From an uncultured Acidobacteriaceae bacterium (lineage in GTDB: Bacteria; Acidobacteriota; Terriglobia; Terriglobales; Acidobacteriaceae): 64,000 bases of DNA. Location of the stretch: contig CAINJJ010000050.1 in assembly GCA_903849645.1 (NCBI GenBank), forward strand, positions 28,025-92,024. Reading direction: 5' to 3'. Position numbers and translations under genes: made by a program. Each line of letters starts with the position of its first letter. The stretch's first letter is position 1. Of the stretch, positions 20,521 to 64,000 are shown piece after piece. Below the pieces are notes generated by a model, which made no database searches, was not told where the DNA came from, and saw only the letters and a program-made list of their open reading frames with translations.

Positions 20521-21146
20521 TTGCCTAACCCAAACAGCCCTTTGCGCCGCGGCGCAAATCCCTTCAGTTGCGGAGCCAGCTCCCGCTGCAGCAGGGCCCG
20601 CGCCCGGTGCAGGCGGACCTTGACCGCCCCTTCTTGAATGCCCAGCGCCGCCGCGGTTTCGCGCACGTCCATCTCTTCGATGTCACGAAGCATCACAACG
20701 TTACGGTAAATCGCCGGAAGCCCCTCGATCGCCTTGCGCAGAATCGCGCCCAGTTCCTTCCGCTCCAGCTCTTCCAGCGGAATCTCCCGCCAGCTCGTCA
20801 AAATCGCCGGCGTGTAATCGCCGCTCTGCTCGTCGGTCTCCGCCTCCAGCGAGTCCTCCCGCCGGCTCGCCTGTTTGCGCAGCCGTCCCAGCCCCTCGTT
20901 GCGCGCAATCGACAACACCCACGTGCGAAACTGCGCATCGCCACGAAACAGGTGCAGGTTCTGATACACCTTGATCGCCGTCTCCTGCGCCGCATCCTCG
21001 GCCTCGGCTTCATTCTTCAAGAGGGAATAAAGCATGAAATAGATTCCGCGCTCCAGAGGCCGGATCAGGTCGTGAAACAGGTGCTTCTCCCCCGCAAGGA
21101 TGCGGCGGATGCACTCGGCCTCGAACTCGGGATTGGATGCGCTCAT
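20517..21146 (-). CDS. ECF-type RNA polymerase sigma factor
   Basis: A 209-residue group 4 sigma factor. Region 2 includes DAAQETAIKVYQNLHLFRGDAQFRTWVLSIARNEGL, and region 4 includes LPAIYRNVVMLRDIEEMDVRETAAALGIQEGAVKVRLHRARALL, the helix-turn-helix that reads the -35 element. I start at ATG 21146 (MSASNPEFEAECIRRI) because earlier codons add no sigma sequence, though no strong ribosome site is seen. It forms a coupled pair with the zinc anti-sigma gene. The nearby bufferin operon is a likely target but this is inference. Confidence 0.93.
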   Translation of the reverse strand: MSASNPEFEAECIRRILAGEKHLFHDLIRPLERGIYFMLYSLLKNEAEAEDAAQETAIKVYQNLHLFRGDAQFRTWVLSIARNEGLGRLRKQASRREDSLEAETDEQSGDYTPAILTSWREIPLEELERKELGAILRKAIEGLPAIYRNVVMLRDIEEMDVRETAAALGIQEGAVKVRLHRARALLQRELAPQLKGFAPRRKGLFGLGK

Positions 21147-21359
21147 CTGGCTCTGCGAGGGGCCAAAGCGGGACCACCGTGGCTCTCCCTGCCCCTTGCT
21201 TTGAACTATAGCGCGACTGCCCTTTGGACTTCGCGTCCGCAACATGCGCAGGCCGCCGGAAAGGCCGGCTCAGATCAATAGTCTGCAAGTTTTTCGCTTG
21301 CAACAGATTACTTTCACTCAAATTGCACTTTCCGCTGTACAATCTCCACGAGGAGACCC

Positions 21360-21701
21360 ATGGCCGGAGATATTCAACTTCAGTGCAGCGATTGCGGGCA
21401 GGACTTCACCTTCACCGCTGCGGATCAGGCGTTCTTTCAGGAACGTGGTTACTCGACCCCAAAACGTTGCAAGAATTGCCGCTTGGCAAAGAAGAACGAT
21501 CAGGGGGGCTCCGGCTACCGTTCGGCTCCAGCACAGGGTACACCTGTTATTTGCTCGGGTTGCGGCCAGCCTACAACAGTGCCTTTTGAGCCGCGTGGTG
21601 ACAGGCCGGTCTTCTGCCGCGACTGCTACCAGGCGCGCAAGGGCAGCGGTGGCGGTCCGGGCGGCGGTGGCGGAAGCTCCCGCGGGCGCGGCAGGTACTA
21701 A
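21360..21701 (+). CDS. Double zinc-ribbon protein with RGG-like tail
   Basis: A 113-residue protein with two CxxC...CxxC zinc ribbons: CSDCGQDFTFTAADQAFF through RCKNC, and ICSGCGQPTTV through FCRDCY. The tail is almost only Gly, Ser and Arg, like RNA-binding RGG tails. This architecture is a known but uncharacterised zinc-ribbon family in soil bacteria; a role in RNA or stress is only inferred. GAGGAG sits 5 nt before the ATG, and TACAAT at 21338 could be a -10 element, with no good -35. It is divergent from the sigma gene. Base use is less GC-rich at third positions than its neighbours in the first half. Confidence 0.8.
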   Translation: MAGDIQLQCSDCGQDFTFTAADQAFFQERGYSTPKRCKNCRLAKKNDQGGSGYRSAPAQGTPVICSGCGQPTTVPFEPRGDRPVFCRDCYQARKGSGGGPGGGGGSSRGRGRY

Positions 21702-21859
21702 ATCGTAGCGGGCTGGATTTTCAAGCAATCTCCGGCCCCGCTCGACGCTTCCATATTCCAGGCAGAGGCCTTTTGTGCGGTTGACCCACCAGGCTCAGGT
21801 CAACTTATCATTGCCGCTCGAGTTATGCCTGCTGAAATCAGCAATCAAGTCAGATTCAC

Positions 21860-21899
21860 AAAAGAGCGGGGCAGCGAATTTTCGCCGCCCCGCTCTTTT
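21860..21899. terminator. Bidirectional rho-independent terminator
   Basis: Arms AAAAGAGCGGGGC and GCCCCGCTCTTTT pair perfectly, with an inner GCGAA/TTCGC extension. Either strand reads a GC stem followed by TTTT. It lies 29 nt after the minus-strand C45-type gene and about 160 nt after the plus-strand zinc-ribbon gene, so it can end both. Confidence 0.9.
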
Positions 21900-21927
21900 G
21901 TCGTTCCAGCGCTCTTGGTCAGTCCGG

Positions 21928-23376
21928 TTACTTCTTTTCCCCAGCCGCAAACTGCGTCCACGGACCCGCCTTCATGTCCTTGAGAATCGGCTTCAGATAG
22001 ATATACTCCGGATGCGCCGCCAGAAACGGAGCCGCGATGAAGTCCTCGCCGCAAGGATGGCCTGCCCGCCCGATAAACGACAGATGGGCGGCCATCTCCG
22101 AGTCCGCCACCTTGCCCGTCACCGCTCCGCCCGGGTAATACGGCGCCCATTCCCACTCCGGCACCCCGCGCTTCACCGTATCCACGTGCCCGCAGAGCGA
22201 ACGCTCATCCGCCTCCGTCTTGCCCGAGTAGCTGTCGTCATGGTCTGCCATGAACTTCTCGGCCATTTCAGTATCGATGCGCCCCTTGGACTCGGCGATC
22301 TTCTTCTCCCAGGTCACGCGCCTCGCATTCGGCGAACTGCCCAGGTTGCTTGGGTCAAAGCCATCTGTCTCCGTCCTGATCAGGTCCGGGTCGCGGGGGA
22401 AGTTGGAGCTGACAAAGTAACCATCCTTCGAACGCCACAGCGGCGTGTTCTTCAAGCCCAGTTCCAGGTACGCAACCTCCCCGCTGTTGCGATCCCCGAT
22501 CAACCAGTCGTTGGCGTAGCCGCCGTTGTTGCCGTCCTTGATCAGCGCCACATATTCATCGATGGAGCCGCCATACTGCAGCGCCTTCCGCGAGCGCACA
22601 AACTCAGGCTTTCCGTTCGAGTCCCACCCCTCAAACTGCGTAATCGTGGTCTCCGTCACCATCAACCCTGCCGCATTCACCCCGAAGTCGTCCTCACTGG
22701 TAATCACGCCAGGCTCGCCATCCACCAGCATCCGGTGCCCCTTGGCCGGTTGAATATCAAAGATCACCGTCCACCGCTCTCCCTCGGCATAGCTTGACCA
22801 GTTGTTGTGCGCAATCACGATCTTTCCGCCCCTGGTGTAGCTGCCCGTGGCGATGAACGCCGAGCAGCGCCCCTCGGGCTTGATCTTCGGAGCGCCCGCC
22901 GCCTTCTCCTTCTTGTCCAGCCAGGGCACATAGTACTCCGACAGCTCCATCTCCCCGTTCAGCGCCACAATGTCCCACACATCGGCCTTCCCGCCCTTCG
23001 ACTGAACCCCTTTGGCGATTCCCGCCAGCTCCTGCTGATACTCCGGGTCAATGTGCGGCCAGAGCATGGTGCGCCCCGCCTCACGGTAGAACTGCCAGTT
23101 GCGCTTGGTGGCGTGGCGGCTCTCCAACTGCGTCACCCGCAGCAGGTCCTCAATCTCAGCCGAAAGCAGGCTGCCATGCTGAAAGCCAATCTGCGCGGGT
23201 GTGCCTTCCAGGTGCACATACGTCCACCCTCCCCGCTCGAAGCGGTAGCCGGGGTCTGTGCTGTTGGGGGTGGCAGTACTCGATGGCGCGCCAGTCGCGG
23301 CGGCAGGCAGAGTTGCAAGGGCGGAAAACGCGAAAAGAGCAAGCGCCGGAACGGCGCGGCGGAGCAGAGCAGGCAT
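21928..23376 (-). CDS. Exported C45/phospholipase B-like Ntn-hydrolase
   Basis: A 482-residue exported protein of the C45 (acyl-CoA:6-APA acyltransferase) / phospholipase B-like clan. After the signal peptide (to PAAATGA) comes a pro-segment with EGTPAQIGFQHGSLL, typical of the family, and then EGRCSAFIATGSYTRGGKIVIAHNNW; the Cys is the expected nucleophile that becomes the new N-terminus after self-cleavage before it. Such enzymes split amide bonds in lipids or peptides; the substrate cannot be read. I move the start to ATG 23376, which follows GGAGGAA by 6 nt. It runs towards the bidirectional terminator at 21860-21899. Confidence 0.8.
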   Translation of the reverse strand: MPALLRRAVPALALFAFSALATLPAAATGAPSSTATPNSTDPGYRFERGGWTYVHLEGTPAQIGFQHGSLLSAEIEDLLRVTQLESRHATKRNWQFYREAGRTMLWPHIDPEYQQELAGIAKGVQSKGGKADVWDIVALNGEMELSEYYVPWLDKKEKAAGAPKIKPEGRCSAFIATGSYTRGGKIVIAHNNWSSYAEGERWTVIFDIQPAKGHRMLVDGEPGVITSEDDFGVNAAGLMVTETTITQFEGWDSNGKPEFVRSRKALQYGGSIDEYVALIKDGNNGGYANDWLIGDRNSGEVAYLELGLKNTPLWRSKDGYFVSSNFPRDPDLIRTETDGFDPSNLGSSPNARRVTWEKKIAESKGRIDTEMAEKFMADHDDSYSGKTEADERSLCGHVDTVKRGVPEWEWAPYYPGGAVTGKVADSEMAAHLSFIGRAGHPCGEDFIAAPFLAAHPEYIYLKPILKDMKAGPWTQFAAGEKK

Positions 23377-51619: not shown

Positions 51620-51696
51620 TGGTGACCCCGGGAAGACTCGAACTTCCGACACGCAGTTTAGGAAACTGCTGCTCTATCCACCTGAGCTACGGGGCC
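51620..51696 (-). tRNA. tRNA-Arg (anticodon CCT)
   Basis: A 77-nt cloverleaf on the minus strand: acceptor GGCCCCG with CGGGGTC (one G-T pair), D-arm with AGCTCAGGTGG, anticodon stem GCAGT/ACTGC enclosing TTCCTAA (anticodon CCT), T-arm with GTTCGAGTC, and an encoded CCA after discriminator A. It reads AGG arginine codons. It ends 60 nt before the receptor promoter. Confidence 0.96.
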
Positions 51697-51808: not shown

Positions 51809-52627
51809 ATGTCACCAAGATACCAGCGTGGGAGCCTTCGGCGCGAGAAGCGCGCCGGCGGAGACAAATGGGTTTGGCGCTACCGGTTGACCGGGGTGAT
51901 GAAACAGGAGGCATATCCAGTCGCCGACTTCAAGACGAAGTCGGTGATGTGGAAGCATCTCGAGCCGTCGATCCGGGTACTCAATGGCCAGGCTGAGAAG
52001 CCAGTTCATGTGGCGCCAACCATGGGCGACGTCATGAAGAAGTACATCGACCAGGAGCTGCCGAAGCTGGCTGCTTCCACGAGGAACACACAGGGAGGTC
52101 AGCTTCGGCTCCACATCGAGCCGCGGTGGGGAAACAAGCCACTCGCGGATATCGAGCCTGGAGAAGTCGAGGAGTGGGTATCGACGATCAAGCAGGTGAA
52201 CACTGGTGAGGACATGTCCCAGACCTCCAGGAGCCACATTGTCATCCTGATGCGCCGGCTATTCAAGCTTACGACCGCGATCAGCCAAATTCCAAGGAAA
52301 GCTATTCCGGACGGCGGTTCCGCGATCAAGCCTAAGAATTTCGGTGTGAACGGGATCAATAGCAGCAACCGGCAAGTATTTCTCGGCATGACCTTTTCGG
52401 TAAATTGGGATACAGCGGCGCCCCCCAAATTTCCGCAGGGATTCCCAACTGACGGAAGGTTGTTCCCAGATGACGTGATCGGCGGCGCTAAGGAGCGGAA
52501 TGCTCCTGGAAACTCGCTTGATGTGTACAACTACAGTTCAACCAAAAATGCGTGGGCATCAACGAGAAGGGCCATGGTTACGACGTATATTCCAGTTAAC
52601 AATGCGGGGGGAACATGTCCAAAATAA
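51809..52627 (+). pseudogene. Truncated tyrosine recombinase (integrase), catalytic domain lost
   Basis: A 272-residue reading frame. Residues 1-170 look like the N-terminal arm-binding and SAM-like core-binding parts of a phage integrase: RYQRGSLRREKRAGGDKWVWRYR, then TMGDVMKKYIDQELPKLAAST, WGNKPLADIEPGEVEEWVSTIKQ and SRSHIVILMRRLFKLTTA. The catalytic R...H-x-x-R...Y domain that should follow is absent; from about residue 175 (KPKNFGVNGINSSN onward) the sequence is unrelated to recombinases. So the integrase is broken at about 52330. It lies beside a tRNA gene, marking an old integration area. Confidence 0.75.
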
Positions 52628-53271
52628 ACAACGTAGCTCGAAACGTCGTGGTATTGATGGCCGTCTTGAACTCAGTCGCTTTTGGACAGAATTGCAAATT
52701 GTCGGGTACCACGGATTGGAATCCTTCACTTCGAAGTGTACTTGCCGATTGCTCATTCACGCTACCGTCGCCAGATGGGCAGCTTAGATTGAATGTTACC
52801 GCATCGGGTGTAATGTCGCTCTGGAAGAATACGGAGGCGAAGAAAGCCTGGCGCGGTCCTAAACTGCAACCGCCTGCGATGGTCTCCTGGTCGCCAAAGT
52901 CAGATACTTTCTTCGTCAACGACGGCGAGGGTTCTGGAATGTCAAGCGTTTTTAGAGTATTTAGAGTCAACGGAATTCAGGTTATGGAAGATGACTCTAT
53001 TGAACGGGCAGCAGTAGCCCTTTACCGTCGCCGAACACATTGCACTAGGTCGTCAGCTGATCCTAACGTTTGGGGCTTTGGCTGGGGAATGAACGGAGAC
53101 AGTATCCTCCTGTTCGTTCAGCCAACGGTGGATGAGCCATGCGGGCCTTCCGGAAACTTTATAGGATTAATTGTGCAGACCTCAGATGGCAAGATTGTGG
53201 AGACAATCCCAGAAGTGCAGATGAAAAAGAGATTCGATTCACTATTGCCACCTGAAATGTTCAGCAAGTGA
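52615..53271 (+). CDS. Secreted protein of unknown function
   Basis: A 218-residue exported protein, signal peptide MSKINNVARNVVVLMAVLNS with cleavage near VAFGQ. The mature chain holds five cysteines and beta-rich stretches such as ADCSFTLPSPDGQLRLNV and WSPKSDTFFVNDGEGSGMSS, a beta-propeller-like repeat pattern. I do not recognise a family. The start overlaps the end of the integrase remnant by 13 nt. A +1 shift near its end would add a further 36-codon open stretch (to 53345), so the C-terminus may be frameshifted. Codon use is visibly more AT-rich than in flanking genes. Confidence 0.55.
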   Translation: MSKINNVARNVVVLMAVLNSVAFGQNCKLSGTTDWNPSLRSVLADCSFTLPSPDGQLRLNVTASGVMSLWKNTEAKKAWRGPKLQPPAMVSWSPKSDTFFVNDGEGSGMSSVFRVFRVNGIQVMEDDSIERAAVALYRRRTHCTRSSADPNVWGFGWGMNGDSILLFVQPTVDEPCGPSGNFIGLIVQTSDGKIVETIPEVQMKKRFDSLLPPEMFSK

Positions 53272-53324
53272 GCCAGAGGCACCGAACTGTGTGACATATA
53301 ACGGCGAGTACCTGCGATACAGCA

Positions 53325-56300
53325 ATGGCGCGCAGACGTACTTCAGTGTCAACTAAGCGTACAAGCAGAATTCGCAGAGCTGCCCAGGGCCCGCGCGTGC
53401 AGTCGTTCTCGACTGAAGTAGCCGCTGGCGCCACAACCTCACTCACCTGGACGGCTCCACGCCCCGGCACTTACCTGATTGAATCGGGCACGCATCCTTC
53501 CATCCAGGGCCCCATGGGGCTCTATGGAATCCTCGTGGTCACAGCTGCTCCAGCCGGCCCGGTGGCGGGTACAGCCTACTCCGGTGTGAGCTACAACGCG
53601 GAAGTGCCGCTGATCTTTGGTGAAATCGACCCGGTACAGAACAACGCAGTCAGCGCCGCGGTAAACCACGTGGGGTTCAGCGAGACTGCGGTCTGGTCAG
53701 GCCAGCCAAACGGCTGTGGAAACCCTTCTTCGGCCAATTACCAGACATGTTATCCACCCGCGGTGAACTACACCCCGCTTTACTACACAATCAACGGCGT
53801 GGCCTTTGACAAGACACATCCGTCTGCATCGCTGTTCTCGGCAACGCCGACAACCGTGACTGCAGGCAGCAACCTCCTTGTGCGGCTGGTCAACGCAGGA
53901 CTGCGCATGCATGTGCCTTCAATCGTTGGCTCGCAAACAAGCGTTGGCTCGCAAACTGGAGGGACCACGCCAATACCGGGCTTTTCGCTCATCGCGGAAG
54001 ATGGCAACCCGCTTCCCGGCTCCGCCCGTGTGCAAAACGAAGTGTTCATGGCCGCCGGCAAGACCTATGACGTGATGGTGAATGCGCCAGGAGGCGGCGC
54101 CGCGGCTCTGCCCGTATATGACCGCGAACTCAGCCTTTCCGGGAATGCGATCTCCCGCGATGCCGGTATGCTGGCCTACATCAATATCAACGGCGCAGCA
54201 GCACCCCATAACGCTTCCGTGACAGCAGCCAATCCGGACACATATAACTCACTTCTAGCAGGTAAGCCGCTGACGGTTGCGGATCCGGCGAAGGGGGTTA
54301 TCGCAAATGACATCAACGTCTATGGCGTCACCCTTCTCACTACGCCCTCGAACGGGACGGTGCTACTGAATTCCGACGGCACCTTCACCTATACGCCGAG
54401 CGGCATGACCGTAACTGACTCTTTTTCCTATTGCGCAAACGGCACCGTCACAAGCACGGGTTGTTCGTCGGGCTTGACCGCTACCGTCACGTTGGGTGCA
54501 GCGCCCCTCGAGGCCGGCAGCGGCATCACAGTGGCTCCTATCTCATACACTGCTAACACAGCAACCTATCTCAAGATCAACTCCCCCGGCGTGTTGTCGG
54601 TGGACAAGGATGCGCTGGGCTATCCGCTTACGGTGAACGCGGCGAGCGTGACCGCAGGGTCGGGTCTCACCCTTGCCGTGGATGGCAGCGGCGGGTTTGT
54701 TGCGTCAGTTTCCACGGCGGGCACCTACACCTTCACTTACAAGGCCCAGAACTCGCAGGGCACTCTCAGCGCCACGGCAGCGACTGTAACGTTGATCTTC
54801 CCGGCGGGCTCCGGCCTGAAGGTATCGGTGGTGGATGGAAACGACAAGACAACCCCAATCACCGATTACCGCTGGATCATCGAGGAAGACCGCACCTTCT
54901 TCATAGACCCCACGAAGACCACGAATAATGGCGGGACAGCGATTGTTCCCACTTTCGGCACCAACTTCCACACCAGCTATATGCCGATGATAGCTACGGG
55001 CTGTGTAGGCACCATCTCCTGCCAACAGGGCCAGTCCATCGGGGGTGTAGGGGTGGTGTGCGACCAGGGGAATGGCGTTTGCAGGACGAGCGCAACGCAG
55101 GAAACAGCTGTCGACCCAGGCCAGGTACACCTGGACCCGACCAAACGCTACTACATCTCCATATTGCCTGGCGATGCAGCCAATCCCTTCCAGACCTCAA
55201 ACCAGACTGGGGCCTGCTCTGCCGGCACGCCAGGGGCCACAAATTGCGGTCACGGCATGGGAGGCGCGCCCATTGCAGCCGGTCAGACCGCGGTGACTGT
55301 GCTTGCACAGCCCACACCGTTCCCGCCCTCCAAGCTGTCAGTCTTTGTCTTTGAAGACGACTTCCCGCTCAACGGCGAGCAGGATGGAGGCGGCGGCATC
55401 GATGTGCTCTCGCCCAATGAACCTGGCCTGGGGCAGTTCAACATCACCATCATGGACGATGCCGGAGGTCCTGGCGACCCCACCGGGCAGGTGGACTACG
55501 ACATGTTCAATCAACCCCTCTCGAACAGCCTGGCCGGCACCAAAGACCCGGTTACCGGAATTGACGCCTGCCCCATATCACCGGAATCGCGCATCGGGAA
55601 GAGCGACCCCACCCAAACTGGAATCACAGGCACGATTGTTACCTGCCCGAAGTACGAGTCGGATGGCACAACACTGTCTCCCCTGGCTGGACAGGCTGTC
55701 GTGGCGAACCTTATGCCAGGCAGGTACGGGGTCATCGCAACTCCAGGCGCGGACCGGATTGCCCGCGGCGAAGAGTGGCTACAGACCAATACCCTCGATG
55801 GCCAGAAGGCGCATGACTCGTTCCTGCGCATCGGGGAGCCGAGTTTCTTCCAGGAGTATGGGCCGGCTGGTTACCACGTCTCCATCGGCTTTGCCAACCC
55901 CGCCATCATCAACGCCCGGAAGGCGAGCGTGTGCAACGGCACCAACATCAACATCACCGGAACAAATTGCACCAATACCGTCACGGGCATCGTAACCACG
56001 GAGCGCATGAGCCGGACTCCGGATGAGAGGCTTTACAGCAGCGGTTCGCGCGACAGCTTCGCCTTCACCCAGTGCTATGTCAGCTTCGGCGATCCGGACG
56101 GGGAAGACTTCGCGTTTACCAAGTGCAACGCTGATGGCACCTTTACGCTCACCGGCCTGCCTGACGGAGATTGGCGGATCACCACCTTCGATCAGTGGAA
56201 CGACCAACTGGTTGACGGCCTCTCTACGCCGGTTCGGCTGGCCGGCGGGGCAACGGTGCACTTCGACTCCAAACCAGGAGGCTTGGGCGACATCGCCGCG

Positions 56301-59300
56301 AATCAGTGGCAAGCCAACTTCATGACCCGCACATTCCTCGACACCAACGGCGACGGCATCTCACAGAAGAATGAGGACGGGCTTGCGCTGGTGAAGACCA
56401 ACGTCCGCTTCCGCGATGGCAGCTTCTCCAATCGCAACAACACTGATCTGAATGGATATGCAGCGTTCAACGAAGAGTTCCCGCTGTTCAGCTGGTATGT
56501 CATTGAGACCGATGTAACCCGCTACAAGAACACTGGAACCCATGTTGTTTACGATGCAGGCGGCCCGGCCGACGGCACGCCCTGCGGAGGAACCACCGGC
56601 GCTGCGCCATGCTCAGCGACAGCCGCCATCTCCAAGAACATGGCCAACACAGTGGAGCAGGTCCCTCTCCCTGCAACCCTGCGCGTCCCCGGGGCCGTCT
56701 ATTGCGACAACGCGGACTGCAATGGCTTCTCAATCGCGACTGGGCCTGAAGCTGGCGGCTCCAGCGGCCCAATCACTGGTCTCTCCACCGGCCGCATCGA
56801 CCCTCCCTGGGTATTGACCGAAGGCTGGCAAGGCTACAGCGGGCAGAACAACTTCCTTGAGTTCGGCAAGAAGCCTTACGCCTCAGGTGAGAACGGCGGC
56901 ATCCGCGGCCACGTGGTTTACTCCTCCACGCGTCCGTTCGACGATCCGCAGTTCAACACGCAAAACACCTGGGAGCCGCTGGTCCCTAATGTCACCATCA
57001 ATCTCTACCAGGAAAGCACGGCGCCGGACGGCAGCCAGGCGCTCACGCTGGTTGACACCACCAAGACCAGCAGCTTTGATGACTGGGCGCAGGGCTTCCG
57101 GTCAGATGGCGTACCCAACATGAACTGCCCCGGCCAGACGACCACGGACCTGTTCTACTTCTCGCTGTATAACCAGCCGAGCTGGCTCGATGTTTACAAC
57201 AACGGCGGGACTCCGGCGCACACCATCCCGTACAACTCCCAGTTCAAGTGCTATGACGGCATGCATAACTGGAACCAGTTGCAACCGGCTCCCTATGACG
57301 GGATGTACCAGTTCCCCAGTGTCACCGCGCTGAATCCAACCACTGGAAAGCCGGCAGGGACAAACTGCACGGCGTGCATACCCAATCCTGACACCACCGA
57401 CCCCTACCGCTCCGGACTTCCCATGCTGCCCGATGGCAAGTACGTCGTGGAAGTCGTGGTGCCTCCGGGTTATCAACTGGTTAAGGAAGAAGACAAGAAC
57501 ATTCTTATCGGCGACAACTTCATCGCGCCGGTTACGGTGGAATTCCCCGGCTTGGGAGGCTCGGTCTTCATCTTGCCCGACCAGGCCGCCATCGGCTCCA
57601 CGTACAATGCCAACAGTGCACAGAACCCGACGCAAAGCCTGGGCAGGGATCCGAGTCTGGAAAGCCATGAGGGTGATACCCCGACGGTGGACACCTTCTG
57701 GCCCTGTGTCGGTGAACTGCGCACAGTGCCTGACTTTATCAGCCTATTCCCCGGCTCGAAGGAAGTGGCTCCGTTTGCCGGCGCCTCACGCCATCTCTGC
57801 GACCGCAAGGAAGTAACACTCGACGACCAGACATCGTCGCAGGCGGAGTTCTTCATCTGGACAGAGACACCCGCTGCGGCCCACTTCACCGGCGTCATCA
57901 CAGACGACTTCACATCAGAGTTCGATCCCTTCTCTCCGCAGTTCGGTGAGAAATTTGCTCCCCCCGACCTGCCTGTATCCATCAAGGATTGGCAAGGGAA
58001 CGAGATTTCGCGAGTCTATGCCGACCATTGGGGATCTTACAATGGTCTGACCTATTCAACGTGGGAGGTGAACCCGCCGAACCCGACTGGATACTCGCCC
58101 ACAATGATGGTCACCTGCATGAATGATCCGGGCACGGGGACCGCTCCTGACCCACTGTTCAATCCGCAGTACAGCAACTTCTGCTACGAAATCCCGTTCA
58201 TGCCTGGGCAAACCCAGTACATGGACACGCCGGTTACGCCGACTTCCGCGTTTGCCGGCGCAGGATACAACAACCCAGACTGCTCATACCCTGTAGCCAC
58301 TCCAGCCATCAGTGAAGTGGACGGTGACGGAGTTGGACCCTGGGTAAGTGCGGCGGGACACGCCATCACAATCACTGCCCTTGGCGACCAGTATGTACCC
58401 AACAACGCATATTCGGGCCCATCCGCGACTACGGCTCCCTACAACCAGAAGACCATCCTGCGTCACTATGGATTTGGCGGCACAAAGGGAACCGTAATCA
58501 TTGGCGGAGTCAGCGTAACCGCGGCCAACATTACAACCTGGAACGACACCACCATCGTTGCCAATGTGCCGAGCACCGTTCCCAACTGCACCCTTCAGCA
58601 GCAGACGCAATACGGCGGCTCTGCGGCCAAGTGCGGTCAACTCGTTATCACCGCCGCGAATGGCAGGCAATCGATTGACTCGATCACCGTCACCATCGGC
58701 GGCAAAGCTCCCACGCACGTTGCCGCCTCGGCATCGATCCAAAGTGCGATCGACGGGGCAGCGCCAGGCGATCTGATCATTGTTGACCCGACATGCACCG
58801 GCGCCACAGGACCAGTTGCATGCACTACCGCCGGCGCCACGAAGTCGAATGCGACCCACCAGGAGCTGGTGCTGATGTGGAAGCCGGTCCGACTGCAAGG
58901 TGTCGGCGCCGCCTCCAGCATCATCAATGCCAACACGCATCCCGCTGGCAAGATCCAGATCTGGCGGCAGAAGGTCAATTGCCTCTTCGGATTGGCGCTC
59001 AATGGAACCCCCTCCACAGGGACGACCGGCGCAAACCCATATGACCCGACAGGAACCTTATCCTGCGGACCCGGTCTGGCAAACTTCAAGCCCTTCGATG
59101 GAGTTAACCCCCAGGTTGACCGCCTGCCTCTGGAAGCAACGGTGGGCTGGGACGCAACTCTCAACGGCAACCTCGCCGAGCTGCTCCAGGAACCGACCCT
59201 CATGGGCGCACTGGAAGGCGCAGCCATCACCGTGCTTTCCAAGGGTGTCAACTTCACATCCAATCCATTCGCAGCCGACACCTTCCCAGCCGGCACCACG

Positions 59301-60182
59301 CTCCTGACAGCAAGCAATTGTGGAACCGCTGCGGGACCCAATCCGTTCCCAAGCAACTTCTGGTGCAATCCGTCCCGCATTAACGGCTTGGGAATCACCA
59401 ATAGCTCACAAGGCGGCGGCGGCATCTTCGTTCACGCCTGGGGCCATAACCTGGAGATCTCAAACAACCGGGTTTACAACAACGCTGGAACGCTGTCGGG
59501 CGGCATCAATGTTGGCCAGGGCGAGTTCCCGCCTGCCTACCTAGGCGGCGCTGCAAACGTGGCGCTTAATGCCGCTCCGGGCTCCTGCCAATCCAGCACC
59601 GTGACGGGCCTTGTGCTGCCCTACTGCCACAACATGAATGTCAACATTCACAACAACGCGGTGGTGGGCAACTCGTCCACAGGCGACGAATTGTTCTCGG
59701 CCACTCCGGCCGGAGCCGGCGGTGTCAGCTTCTGCACCGGCGCCGACTACTACAAGTTCAATTACAACTGGGTCTGTGGCAACTTGAGCACGGGTGATGG
59801 CGGCGGTCTTGGCCACCTTGGGTTCATTTACAACGGCGACATCGAGCACAACACCTTCCTGTTCAATCAGGCCACGAATCCAACCATTCCTACCAATGGT
59901 GGCGGCGTCCTGATTATGGGCGCGCCAGACGTAGATCCACCCTGCTCGGCACTCAATGATGCAGACTGCGTCGGCGCTCCGAACTTGATCGGACCGAGCG
60001 ACGGCAGCGGTCCGGGGCTGGTGATCAACGCCAACCTGATCATGGGCAACGCAGCGGACAGTGGCAGCGGCGGTGGCCTGCGCCTGCAGAACATCAACGG
60101 CTCTGACGTGGTGAGCTTCCCGACCACGCCGGCGCGGTGGAACTCGGTGACGGTCACCAACAACTGCGCGCAATCATTGTAG
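53325..60182 (+). pseudogene. Giant multicopper oxidase/Ig-like/beta-helix protein, apparently cut at both ends
   Basis: A 2285-codon frame. Residues 25-290 are cupredoxin sequence of a multicopper oxidase (RVQSFSTEVAAGATTSLTW, GTYLIESGTHPSIQGPMGLY), but the preceding H-x-H-G cupredoxin and signal peptide of such enzymes are missing. Then come cadherin/Ig-like repeats (GVIANDINVYGVTLLTTPSN), SdrD B-like modules (TFLDTNGDGISQKNEDG), an IPT/TIG domain and a right-handed beta-helix (GLGITNSSQGGGGIFVHA). It stops abruptly at VTVTNNCAQSL where a beta-helix should continue. It was a surface or secreted oxidase; as it stands it lacks export signal and copper ligands, so is probably not functional. 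Confidence 0.75.
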
Positions 60183-60651
60183 GCAGCAGCACAGGATGCT
60201 CCTGCTGCTGGATGGCGGCAAGCCGTTTGCGCGCGTGGGCGGCGGCGGGTTGGTCAGGGTAGTCGTGAAGGATCTGCTCGTAGACCTGTTTGGCCTGGTG
60301 GCCGAGCTTCTCGTCGCATTCGGCGAGGCGCAACAATGCTTTTGCCCGCACCTCGCGCGGTGTTGAGTTATCCGCCGCAATCTTCTCGTAAATCTCCATC
60401 GCCGACTTGAGATCGCCATCCGCATCTTCCTTCTCGATCCCCGCCTGCAGCCGCACGCCGGCCGCGACCGGGGCGGACTGAGCAAACAAAGGCCGAACTC
60501 CGATGGCGAAGAAGGGATCCGCCAGGAGATAGATCATGGCCGCGAATACGGCCCGCCTCAGCAATGGGCTATGGGCAGCGCCGCCAGCCGGGCCGGCATG
60601 ACCGGTCCTGGTCACTTCCATTCCGTCTGCTTCAATTTGAGTCGTGTTCAT
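60154..60651 (-). pseudogene. Truncated paralogue of TPR-PD40 protein (N-terminal part only)
   Basis: A 165-residue frame that matches the N-terminus of the next gene (60696-62921): both have a signal-type segment, LQAGIE-ED, then AIDVYQKIAAD/AMEIYEKIAAD, VRAKALLRLA and KQVYEQILHDY. The match ends at IQQQEHPV; after that 12 unrelated residues (LLPTMIARSCW) run into the antisense of the truncated oxidase. The beta-propeller half is missing. It is a broken duplicate, cut at about 60190. Confidence 0.82.
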
Positions 60652-60695: not shown

Positions 60696-62921
60696 TCATT
60701 TCTTTGCGGGGGGCTCGAAGTTTTCGAGAGCCCAGATATCGTAGTTGTTGTACTGCATGGTTAGAGTAAGAACCTTGTGTCCGTCGGGGCTAAAGAACAG
60801 ACCACCCCACTCCTCTTTGGTTGGAAAATCGCCCACTCTCTCGGGCTCTCCTCCGGTGACCCGGACGCGAAACAGAGCGTGCTTTCCCTCGGAGTCAAAG
60901 GAGTGAAATAGAACCCAGTGGCAGTCTGGAGTGATTTCGAAATGGCCGCCGGGGAGGATGCCGGAAACCAGAGTCTTCCATTCTCCCTCTGGAAGCGACC
61001 GGGCGAGCAGGTCGTGTTCGAGGATTCTCACGATCCAGTGGCCATCCATGGAAGGCCTTTCCTGCCCTCCCTCTCCTTCTGAATGCAATGGAAGGTCAAT
61101 CACGGTCTCTTGATGGCTATCTCTCTCCCATCGGCTTATAGGGGGGATTCCTAGAAAAGGGACGCCACTTGAGAGGTAGAAGGTCCGGTCATCCTCGCTG
61201 GTTCGGAGAATGTACCTTGGTCCTGGGAATGTTTCAAGGCGCTCCATGACGCCAGAGTCCGCGGATATCTCATTCAAGTCTGTGGACCATCGTCCATCAT
61301 TGAAGGTTTCGCTGGCGCACAAGACCGCAGGATGTTGAAACTCAAATCGGCAGCTCTCGTTATTCGTTTGCGAATGAAAGAGAATGCGCTGCTGCCCAGT
61401 GCTGAGATCCTGCAGGATGAGAACTCGTTTGGCCGGGTCTTCATCCCCGGCCACGTAGGCAATCTTCCGGCCATCGGGTGAAAAAGATGGCCAGGGATTG
61501 ACACCCAGGCCGATGCCGCCGCGGATTTCCACTCGCTGCCAATCCCGAACATGGTTGTCGGCGTCAAAGGACCCAACAAAGGCCTCCGATTCGACCGGTT
61601 TGGTGGAACGATCCTGATAGACGAATGCTCCATTCATGGTGCTGTGGCCGCTTTGAATATCTCCATATCGCACAAACTCCGGTGGGGCGTTCACCTTTCC
61701 TTCCTTCACCGGGAGCAAAAAGAGCGCAGGCTTTCCCAAATGAAGATCGCAAAGTGCCAGAAAGGCGCCGTCGGAGGTCCAATCGCGAAGAACCGACCTT
61801 CTCCCTTTAAATATTGGGTCTTCACCATCGCGCGATGGTGATTGATACACCATCTGCGGATCTCCCTGTGGTTCTCCATCCTTCATGGGGAGTAAATACT
61901 CCCGAGCCGGGGCCAGTTCTTCCGGGATGGTCAGCAATTCATAAGCGACGAATCGTCCGTCAGGCGAGAAGGCCGCTTTGTTCACGCGCCGGCCCGGTTC
62001 CACGCTCGCCAACACGTGGCGCTTGCCGTCGGCGACAGAGACTATCGTCAAATGTCTAACTCCAATTTGCGGGTGTGTTGGGTAGACCAACAGGTATCGG
62101 CCATCCCAGGACCATGCAATGCCCCAGTCTGATGTTCCACCCAAAATGCTCCCTGCGGCATCGTCGCGCACCAACTCCCTATAGCTGGTGCCATCAATTT
62201 TGATGAGGGCGATATAGGAAGGATGTCTGGTCGATGTCATGAACCTCAGCGCTACCATGGAGAAGTCCCTGGATGGAAGGCAGGAAGGCTCATCCCCCGA
62301 AGGGAACTGGTAGATCAATCGCCTGCTGCGTCCGGCCAGATCTCCGAAGAAGACCTCTCCGTTGGGATTGGAGAAGATCGCGCGTTGGCCATCTGTGTCG
62401 CTTGAGCCCATGTCGCCCAATCCGGACCAATCGATTTTGCGTACGGTCATAGTTCCCCGCTGCACCGGATGCTCCTGCTGCTGGATGGCCGCAAGGCGCT
62501 TGCGGGCGAAGGCGGCGGCGGGCTGGTCGGCGTAGTCGTGGAGGATCTGCTCGTAGACCTGTTTGGCATGCCGGCCCAGTTTCTCCTCGCATCCGGCGAG
62601 GCGGAGGAGGGCTTTGGCGCGGACGTCGCGGGAAGCGGAGGCGTCCGCGGCGATCTTCTGGTAGACGTCGATGGCTGCGGGCAAGTGGCCGAAGTCTTCC
62701 TGCTCGATACCAGCCTGGAGTTGGGCGCCGGTGCTGATGGATGCGGATTGGGCGAAGGAGGGCTGGACGGAGAGCAGCGAGGCGATGGCCAGGGGGAGAC
62801 AGATGGAGGAAGCGAAGCCCCGGCGGCTGAGGACAAGGCCGCAAGCAGCAGTGAAAATGAGTGCGAACCGTTTGGTGCTGCCCGGTTTGGTGTGGATCGT
62901 CTTCCTCTGGGTCTGGTTCAT
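60696..62921 (-). CDS. Exported TPR-like plus PD40 beta-propeller protein
   Basis: A 741-residue exported protein. After a signal peptide (to QPSFAQS) is a helical YbgF/BamD-like TPR segment (AAIDVYQKIAADASASRDVRAKALLRLAGCEEKLG), then a beta-propeller of TolB/PD40 blades, with FSPDGRFVAYELL, FSPDGRKIAYVAG and FSPDGHKVLTLTM. Relatives are common in Acidobacteriota near two-component genes, without known activity. The true start is ATG 62921, with GGGAGG five bases before it; the track's 63287 start lies inside the response regulator gene. The response regulator is just upstream on the same strand, so it may be the sensor or target of that pair. Confidence 0.8.
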   Translation of the reverse strand: MNQTQRKTIHTKPGSTKRFALIFTAACGLVLSRRGFASSICLPLAIASLLSVQPSFAQSASISTGAQLQAGIEQEDFGHLPAAIDVYQKIAADASASRDVRAKALLRLAGCEEKLGRHAKQVYEQILHDYADQPAAAFARKRLAAIQQQEHPVQRGTMTVRKIDWSGLGDMGSSDTDGQRAIFSNPNGEVFFGDLAGRSRRLIYQFPSGDEPSCLPSRDFSMVALRFMTSTRHPSYIALIKIDGTSYRELVRDDAAGSILGGTSDWGIAWSWDGRYLLVYPTHPQIGVRHLTIVSVADGKRHVLASVEPGRRVNKAAFSPDGRFVAYELLTIPEELAPAREYLLPMKDGEPQGDPQMVYQSPSRDGEDPIFKGRRSVLRDWTSDGAFLALCDLHLGKPALFLLPVKEGKVNAPPEFVRYGDIQSGHSTMNGAFVYQDRSTKPVESEAFVGSFDADNHVRDWQRVEIRGGIGLGVNPWPSFSPDGRKIAYVAGDEDPAKRVLILQDLSTGQQRILFHSQTNNESCRFEFQHPAVLCASETFNDGRWSTDLNEISADSGVMERLETFPGPRYILRTSEDDRTFYLSSGVPFLGIPPISRWERDSHQETVIDLPLHSEGEGGQERPSMDGHWIVRILEHDLLARSLPEGEWKTLVSGILPGGHFEITPDCHWVLFHSFDSEGKHALFRVRVTGGEPERVGDFPTKEEWGGLFFSPDGHKVLTLTMQYNNYDIWALENFEPPAKK

Positions 62922-63030
62922 GGCGCCTCCCGGTTCGGATAGGCCGAGGATGAAGGAACGGTGTGTGGGGCAGATGGCTTTACCGTTCGTTCCCGGTAAG
63001 AATTCGGTCAGGATGTTGTGACGCGCCGGC

Positions 63031-63723
63031 TCAGGCGTCGAAGCGGTAACCCAATCCCCGGATGCTGACGAGATAGCGGGGGGCGGCGGGCTCGTCCTCG
63101 ATTTTCTTGCGCAGCGAGACGATGTGGTTGTCGACGACGCGATCAGTGACGGCAATGCCCGTGCCCCAGACCTCGTCGAGGAGGCGTTCACGGGTGAGGA
63201 GACGGCCACGGTTGCGGACGAAGGCGGCGAGGAGCTTGAGCTCGGTGGGGGTGGTCTCAAGGCAAAGGCCGTTGCGGCGCAGCTCAAAGCGGGTCATGTC
63301 GAGTTCGCAGCACCCGAAGCGGTAGACGTCGTCAGGCTGTGCGGCTGCGGGCTCCGAGGGCAGGGCACCACGCAACCTGGCGCGGATGCGGGCGCGGAGC
63401 TCCCGGGGGCTGAAGGGCTTGGTGACGTAGTCGTCAGCGCCGACGTCGAGGCCCATCACTTTTTCCGCCTCCTGGGTTTTGGCGGTGAGCAGGATGATGG
63501 GAATCTTGAGACCGCGGTGGCGGAGCTCGCGGCAGATTTCAAATCCGTCCTTGTGGGGTAGCATGACGTCGAGCAGGATGAGGTCGAAGGCGCCGGCCAG
63601 GGCACAAGAGACGGCCTCGGCTCCGTCCGCGACCATCGTGACCTCATATCCTTCGGTTTCGAGATCGCTCTCAAGACTGAAAGCAATCCCGGGCTCGTCT
63701 TCGACGACAAGAATCTTGACCAT
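63031..63723 (-). CDS. OmpR/PhoB-type response regulator
   Basis: A 230-residue two-component regulator. The receiver domain opens MVKILVVEDEPGIAFSL (acidic pocket), has the phospho-acceptor Asp in LILLDVMLP, the Thr of ILLTAKT and the Lys of YVTKPF. The winged-helix DNA-binding domain ends with RYLVSIRGLGYRFDA, typical of OmpR. AAGGAG precedes the ATG. Upstream only the last 11 codons of its histidine kinase remain, ending at an IS21-type element, so the regulator may now be an orphan unless the kinase survives beyond the window. Confidence 0.95.
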   Translation of the reverse strand: MVKILVVEDEPGIAFSLESDLETEGYEVTMVADGAEAVSCALAGAFDLILLDVMLPHKDGFEICRELRHRGLKIPIILLTAKTQEAEKVMGLDVGADDYVTKPFSPRELRARIRARLRGALPSEPAAAQPDDVYRFGCCELDMTRFELRRNGLCLETTPTELKLLAAFVRNRGRLLTRERLLDEVWGTGIAVTDRVVDNHIVSLRKKIEDEPAAPRYLVSIRGLGYRFDA

Positions 63724-63913: not shown

Positions 63914-64000
63914 TCAGGCTCGTTTTCGGCGGCTTTGCTTGAGGCGGTAGGAGTCGGCGTTCATCTCCAGGATGTGGACGTGGTGGGTGATGCGGTCGAG
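63914..64000 (-). CDS. IstB-like ATP-binding protein of IS21 element (C-terminal 28 residues)
   Basis: The minus strand translates LDRITHHVHILEMNADSYRL then KQSRRKRA and a stop, the normal C-terminus of IstB, the AAA+ helper that directs the IstA transposase. The rest is beyond the right edge. Confidence 0.85.
   Translation of the reverse strand, partial: LDRITHHVHILEMNADSYRLKQSRRKRA

Follow-up and report, generated by a model that had tools for sequence, protein, structure and literature searches.

A probable recent two-sided pseudogene of a giant cupredoxin-cluster gene beside a tRNA-Arg in an Acidobacteriaceae genome

The long open reading frame (ORF) found in a 64,000-nucleotide stretch of DNA from an uncultured Acidobacteriaceae bacterium (the whole stretch is referred to as the window) is very probably a recent two-sided pseudogene. 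It retains the central three quarters of a giant gene, the third in a cupredoxin gene cluster of the order A-B-giant. Deletions or rearrangements would have removed both ends and both partner genes, in a region next to a tRNA-Arg where remnants of other genes also lie. Since the signal peptide and the ribosome-binding site are both absent, we infer from the sequence that the ORF probably gives no functional product. Parts found in all intact relatives are lost, and no internal stops or frameshifts interrupt the 2285 codons, which is consistent with a recent break. On the other hand, an intact frame of this length would also allow selection on the truncated product.

An earlier note on this DNA had described a stop-free frame of 2285 codons, truncated at both ends, with a basic N-terminus devoid of a signal peptide and with the C-terminus in mid beta-helix. 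All of these features were confirmed. The frame was reproduced at 53325-60182 (forward strand), homology was confined to 53380-60164 with the paralogue described below extending past both limits, no signal peptide was found at the basic N-terminus, and the 3' break fell inside the last coils of the predicted beta-helix. The DNA homology with the nearest relatives began at 53380-53384 in the alignments with loci L034 and L068 (at 53380 in L068, with CTGCCCAGGGCCCGCGCGT identical) and had its 3' limit at 60163-60164; the alignment with L034 ends at 60164 (GTCACCAACAAC). Because the homology is limited in this way, the leader MARRRTSVSTKRTSRIRR and the terminal CAQSL-stop represent junction sequence (Table 1). 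No Shine-Dalgarno-like sequence precedes the ATG of the ORF (CCTGCGATACAGCAATG), and promoter-like sites upstream were not commoner than expected by chance. A frameshift was considered as well; the upstream frames were searched for the missing N-terminus and none has such a sequence. The collinear identity of residues 20-2280 to the giant family was about 70%, and since it spans some 2250 residues of full-length proteins, a chance match is excluded. Besides the two domains listed in Table 1, Pfam gave a Cu-oxidase match that was sub-threshold only, and neither HxH nor HCH occurred anywhere in the ORF.

Table 1. Features of the window around and within the truncated giant gene.
Feature	Position	Strand	Basis or remark
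tRNA-Arg (CCT)	51620..51696	-	ARAGORN; the same tRNA in L028 also adjoins a gene of this integrase family (next row)
Tyrosine-integrase remnant, N-terminal 154 residues, without the catalytic domain	51809..52272	+	63% identity to an integrase of 379 aa, intact and beside this same tRNA, in relative G017
218-aa frame, no Pfam/NCBIfam match, low GC3 (0.51)	52615..53271	+	Between the integrase remnant and the truncated gene
Non-homologous leader MARRRTSVSTKRTSRIRR, 18 codons (18-19)	53325..53379	+	Read from the junction sequence
Giant (third) gene remnant of the cupredoxin cluster	53380..60164	+	DNA alignments with L034/L068; protein match to residues 156-2451 of the 3053-aa C46 paralogue
Big_9 bacterial Ig domain, residues 301-382	54225..54470	+	Pfam PF17963, E 1.4e-5
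SdrD B-like domain, residues 1003-1089	56331..56591	+	Pfam PF17210, E 3.9e-9
Foreign last codons CAQSL-stop	60165..60182	+	Junction to the TPR gene remnant on the opposite strand
TPR/YbgF-like N-terminal remnant, 165-aa frame	60165..60651 (or 60154..60651)	-	62% identity to 60696-63287 over residues 26-163
Full-length TPR + WD40/TolB-like beta-propeller protein	60696..63287	-	PF07676, TIGR02800

The other copy in the same genome (4.54 Mb in 56 contigs) is located on contig C46 (C46:92421-99212) and is 70% identical over nearly the whole length. Its frame comprises 3057 codons, giving 3053 aa from the first ATG, with a clear signal peptide (MRIKHLKGTLKTAILAASVLLAGAGISGAQQ), and it stands third in an operon, after the genes for two smaller multicopper oxidases (MCO-A and MCO-B). 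Compared with this paralogue, the window copy is deprived of 155 N-terminal and 602 C-terminal residues. The N-terminal cupredoxin region is incomplete, the homology starting at paralogue residue 156, as are the beta-helix and the C-terminal tail, with the break placed at model residue 520, between coils and before the last strands. Neither MCO-A nor MCO-B adjoins the window copy, and the genes found downstream of the intact giant are also absent. MCO-A occurs in the genome once, on C46. When the missing N- and C-terminal pieces were searched separately against the genome, they were located only in the intact C46 cluster, all other matches being distant repeats.

A scan of GTDB genomes revealed 215 relatives, of which 80 were kept as loci, mostly from Acidobacteriota and Burkholderiales, plus Sideroxydans and others. 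Full-length relatives of the fragment thus exist not only on C46; two of the 59 relative genomes, both of the same genus, hold further intact copies of 3048-3505 aa (five in G008, one in G009). The complete N-terminus was seen by BLAST in 70 relatives. The shortest relatives are cut off where their contigs stop; the rest mostly measure 2700-3400 aa. No homologue with the start or the end of the window copy was present among the 80 loci, hence the complete short form that would speak against a truncation was found at none of them. The order A-B-giant, with a median B-giant gap of 16 bp, was conserved at every one of the 76 loci whose upstream sequence extends for 3.4 kb or more, a count that includes L021 and L066, which are one and the same locus. 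A few Acidobacteriota genomes have between one and five copies of the cluster, and many Burkholderiales carry it too. The giant gene is also present on the chromid of a laboratory relative, Cupriavidus metallidurans CH34. Five intact A-B-giant clusters (L019-L023) were found in a single acidobacterial genome, G008, while most genomes of the genus have none. Tyrosine integrase-like genes were noticed close downstream of several intact acidobacterial clusters (L018:17472-18710, L022:16675-17781, L024:684-1820, L030:21030-23809, and L034:21069-22154), and in the tree the Sideroxydans copy (L074) branches within the acidobacterial copies. Both observations suggest horizontal movement of the cupredoxin clusters.

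The surroundings of the window copy hold other broken genes. The TPR remnant, oriented head-on to the ORF, is likewise cut at the junction, because its homology to the neighboring gene at 60696-63287 stops at about 60186. Both TPR/TolB-like genes (the remnant and its full-length neighbor) are accessory, being nearly absent from same-genus relatives. Three genes cut within 9 kb indicate a patch of decaying accessory DNA. A short frame at 53225-53356 (forward strand, other frame) ends with CVTYNGEYLRYSNGAQTYFSVN just before the 5' junction; this frame and the one at 52615-53271 are possibly two further gene remnants. The integrase may have had a role in bringing the giant gene here, but its remnant sits on the 5' side of the tRNA-Arg and no attachment-site repeat of this tRNA was found in the window. 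Two routes to the present arrangement were considered and rejected: a single deletion via a conserved TPR neighbor, as the TPR gene was not found near intact copies and is itself rare, and a deletion by short direct repeats, as the longest match between the two junctions is 6 bp.

The earlier note had offered a recently broken gene as one explanation, and the intact frame, the loss of both ends and the lack of sequence decay agree with it. Of 965 columns that do not vary among the other copies, 34 are changed in the window fragment, against 28-35 in the closer intact copies and 60-70 in the two most divergent ones. The dN/dS values of the fragment against intact copies (0.11-0.21) were no higher than those between intact copies, and its tree branch (0.14) was shorter than that of its sister (0.23). 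As there is no excess of changes at the conserved sites, the break is young compared with the divergence of the family. The nearest relatives of the window copy come from other Acidobacteriota (77% identity). In the tree it groups with L034, L068, and L063 (all Acidobacteriota), apart from C46, and therefore represents an independent lineage; a recent duplication of the C46 copy was ruled out on the same grounds. The possibility of a mosaic of two copies was also dismissed, as the nearest relative shows no convincing switch along the gene.

Other explanations of the frame were weighed against a recent pseudogene. Assembly errors at 53.38 kb and 60.16 kb could have fused part of an intact gene with unrelated DNA, and the contig carrying the window (C50) does end at window position 64000 in an assembly broken into 56 contigs. 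We regard such errors as very improbable: the 6.8-kb fragment is present as one copy only in an assembly scored 100% complete, the missing ends exist only in the 70%-identical paralogue, the 5' flank is single-copy in the genome, no long repeats lie at the junctions and none longer than 6 bp links them, and the adjoining integrase and TPR genes are similarly truncated, as expected of decay. It is also quite unlikely that the ORF encodes a functional short form, i.e., a truncated yet useful protein with, for example, both ends replaced (the earlier note had named such a replacement as an alternative to a recent break). The intact frame and the conserved sites without excess changes would fit such a protein, but a recent break explains the lack of decay equally well; furthermore, export and translation signals are lacking, the break falls within the beta-helix, the partner genes are missing and not one of the 80 loci has a homologue with the same ends.

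We consider it no less improbable that the fragment is what remains of a genuine giant oxidase with its copper ligands in the lost N-terminus. This reading would be favored by the predicted fold, since the first 444 residues of one intact relative resemble two-domain laccases and copper nitrite reductases in a model of modest confidence (AlphaFold2, pLDDT 60.7; matches to MCOs and nitrite reductases at E 3e-7 to 2e-5, TM about 0.4). However, neither HxHG nor HCH was found within the first 460 residues of the giant in any of the 87 relatives aligned, the equivalent stretches read PTSLTIVGQLGG and ESGTHPSIQGPMGLYG and are conserved in the family, and the Sideroxydans counterpart Slit_1816 was reported to have no canonical MCO motifs (PMC12016527). 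The motifs reside instead in the two genes directly upstream of the intact giants: in MCO-A, both HxxHxHG and HCHxxxxxH..GM are present in 77 of 80 rows (contig ends cut the remaining 3), and in MCO-B, HxxHxHxxH and WHSH are present in all 80. Hence, the view that copper ligands had been lost with the N-terminus was not supported, and neither was the earlier note's picture of the ancestor as a huge surface oxidase.

The data instead support a giant surface protein, probably with a cupredoxin fold, that has two MCOs as partners. In intact giants, a signal peptide is present and the N-terminus is cupredoxin-like. In a model of L030 residues 1947-2751 (pLDDT 61.5, with better values in the strands), short strands recur as in a parallel beta-helix; similarity to polysaccharide-active beta-helices was weak (best E 2e-3), and a PDB profile search with the giant gave zero matches. 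Tentatively, the intact giant may be a secreted copper-free scaffold or surface-binding subunit that holds the two oxidizing MCOs at the cell surface, and its cupredoxin-like N-terminus, Ig and SdrD-B domains and beta-helix would be the parts of this scaffold. A more specific and rather doubtful proposal is that the three genes together encode one split secreted multicopper oxidase, in which MCO-A would contribute the type 1 copper plus one half of the ligands of the trinuclear site (HTVHFHG, HCHITPPEHLQMGM) and MCO-B the remaining half (HPFHEH, WHSH), with the giant as a copper-free scaffold anchoring the complex to minerals or polysaccharide. Judging by the motifs, a trinuclear copper site common to A and B may exist, as A has the full type 1 and half-site motifs and B has His pairs without Cys.

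The fragment itself is very probably an ordinary, fresh pseudogene, and its value lies in pointing to a conserved three-gene cluster of extracellular copper proteins. The cupredoxin-cluster giant is a known but uncharacterized family, and the cluster represents a little-studied system in which many soil bacteria encode a giant secreted protein beside two copper enzymes. If the giant were the copper-free scaffold of a split oxidase, the cluster would bear on the extracellular oxidation of solid minerals or polymers by soil bacteria, and the window would hold a dead relative of a machine widespread in acidobacteria and Burkholderiales.

Among known systems, the two-domain laccases and copper nitrite reductases (PDB 2zwn, 3g5w, 5zl1) are the best fold matches of the N-terminal 444 residues of an intact giant, and these structures also rank among the top sequence matches for MCO-A and MCO-B. 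The likeness of the giant to them is one of predicted fold only, as it has none of their copper ligands. MofA of Leptothrix and OmpB of Geobacter are large extracellular multicopper-oxidase proteins whose genes cluster with those for cytochromes and copper chaperones, and OmpB has an adhesion-type domain (PMC5566968); by this description, they are single-polypeptide MCOs and are thereby set apart from the giant. The cluster itself is known from Slit_1812-1818 of Sideroxydans lithotrophicus ES-1, where two genes with MCO motifs stand beside a larger third gene, Slit_1816, without them (PMC12016527, 2025); the correspondence with ES-1 rests on the published description. The architecture, called rarely described in the earlier note, is fairly so termed, yet it has been described for Slit_1816, which besides cupredoxin has adhesin-like and polysaccharide-lyase-like domains and reached a higher abundance with magnetite than with Fe(II)-citrate (PMC12016527). 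Similar clusters were reported in Paraburkholderia and Ralstonia (PMC12016527), and an earlier mention of the cluster is that of 'three tandem MCO-coding genes' (PMC5566968). In comparison with the Slit cluster, the window copy is a fragment only, with no adjoining A, B, SCO1, or cytochrome genes, and no SCO1 or cytochrome c genes were seen beside the intact acidobacterial clusters at L030, L063, and L069. The locus L074 from a Sideroxydans metagenome-assembled genome has contents that match the Slit cluster, namely A, B, the giant, LolA-like genes, cytochrome c, and SCO1, with the SCO1 and monohaem cytochrome c genes at L074:4844-5491 and 20986-22659.
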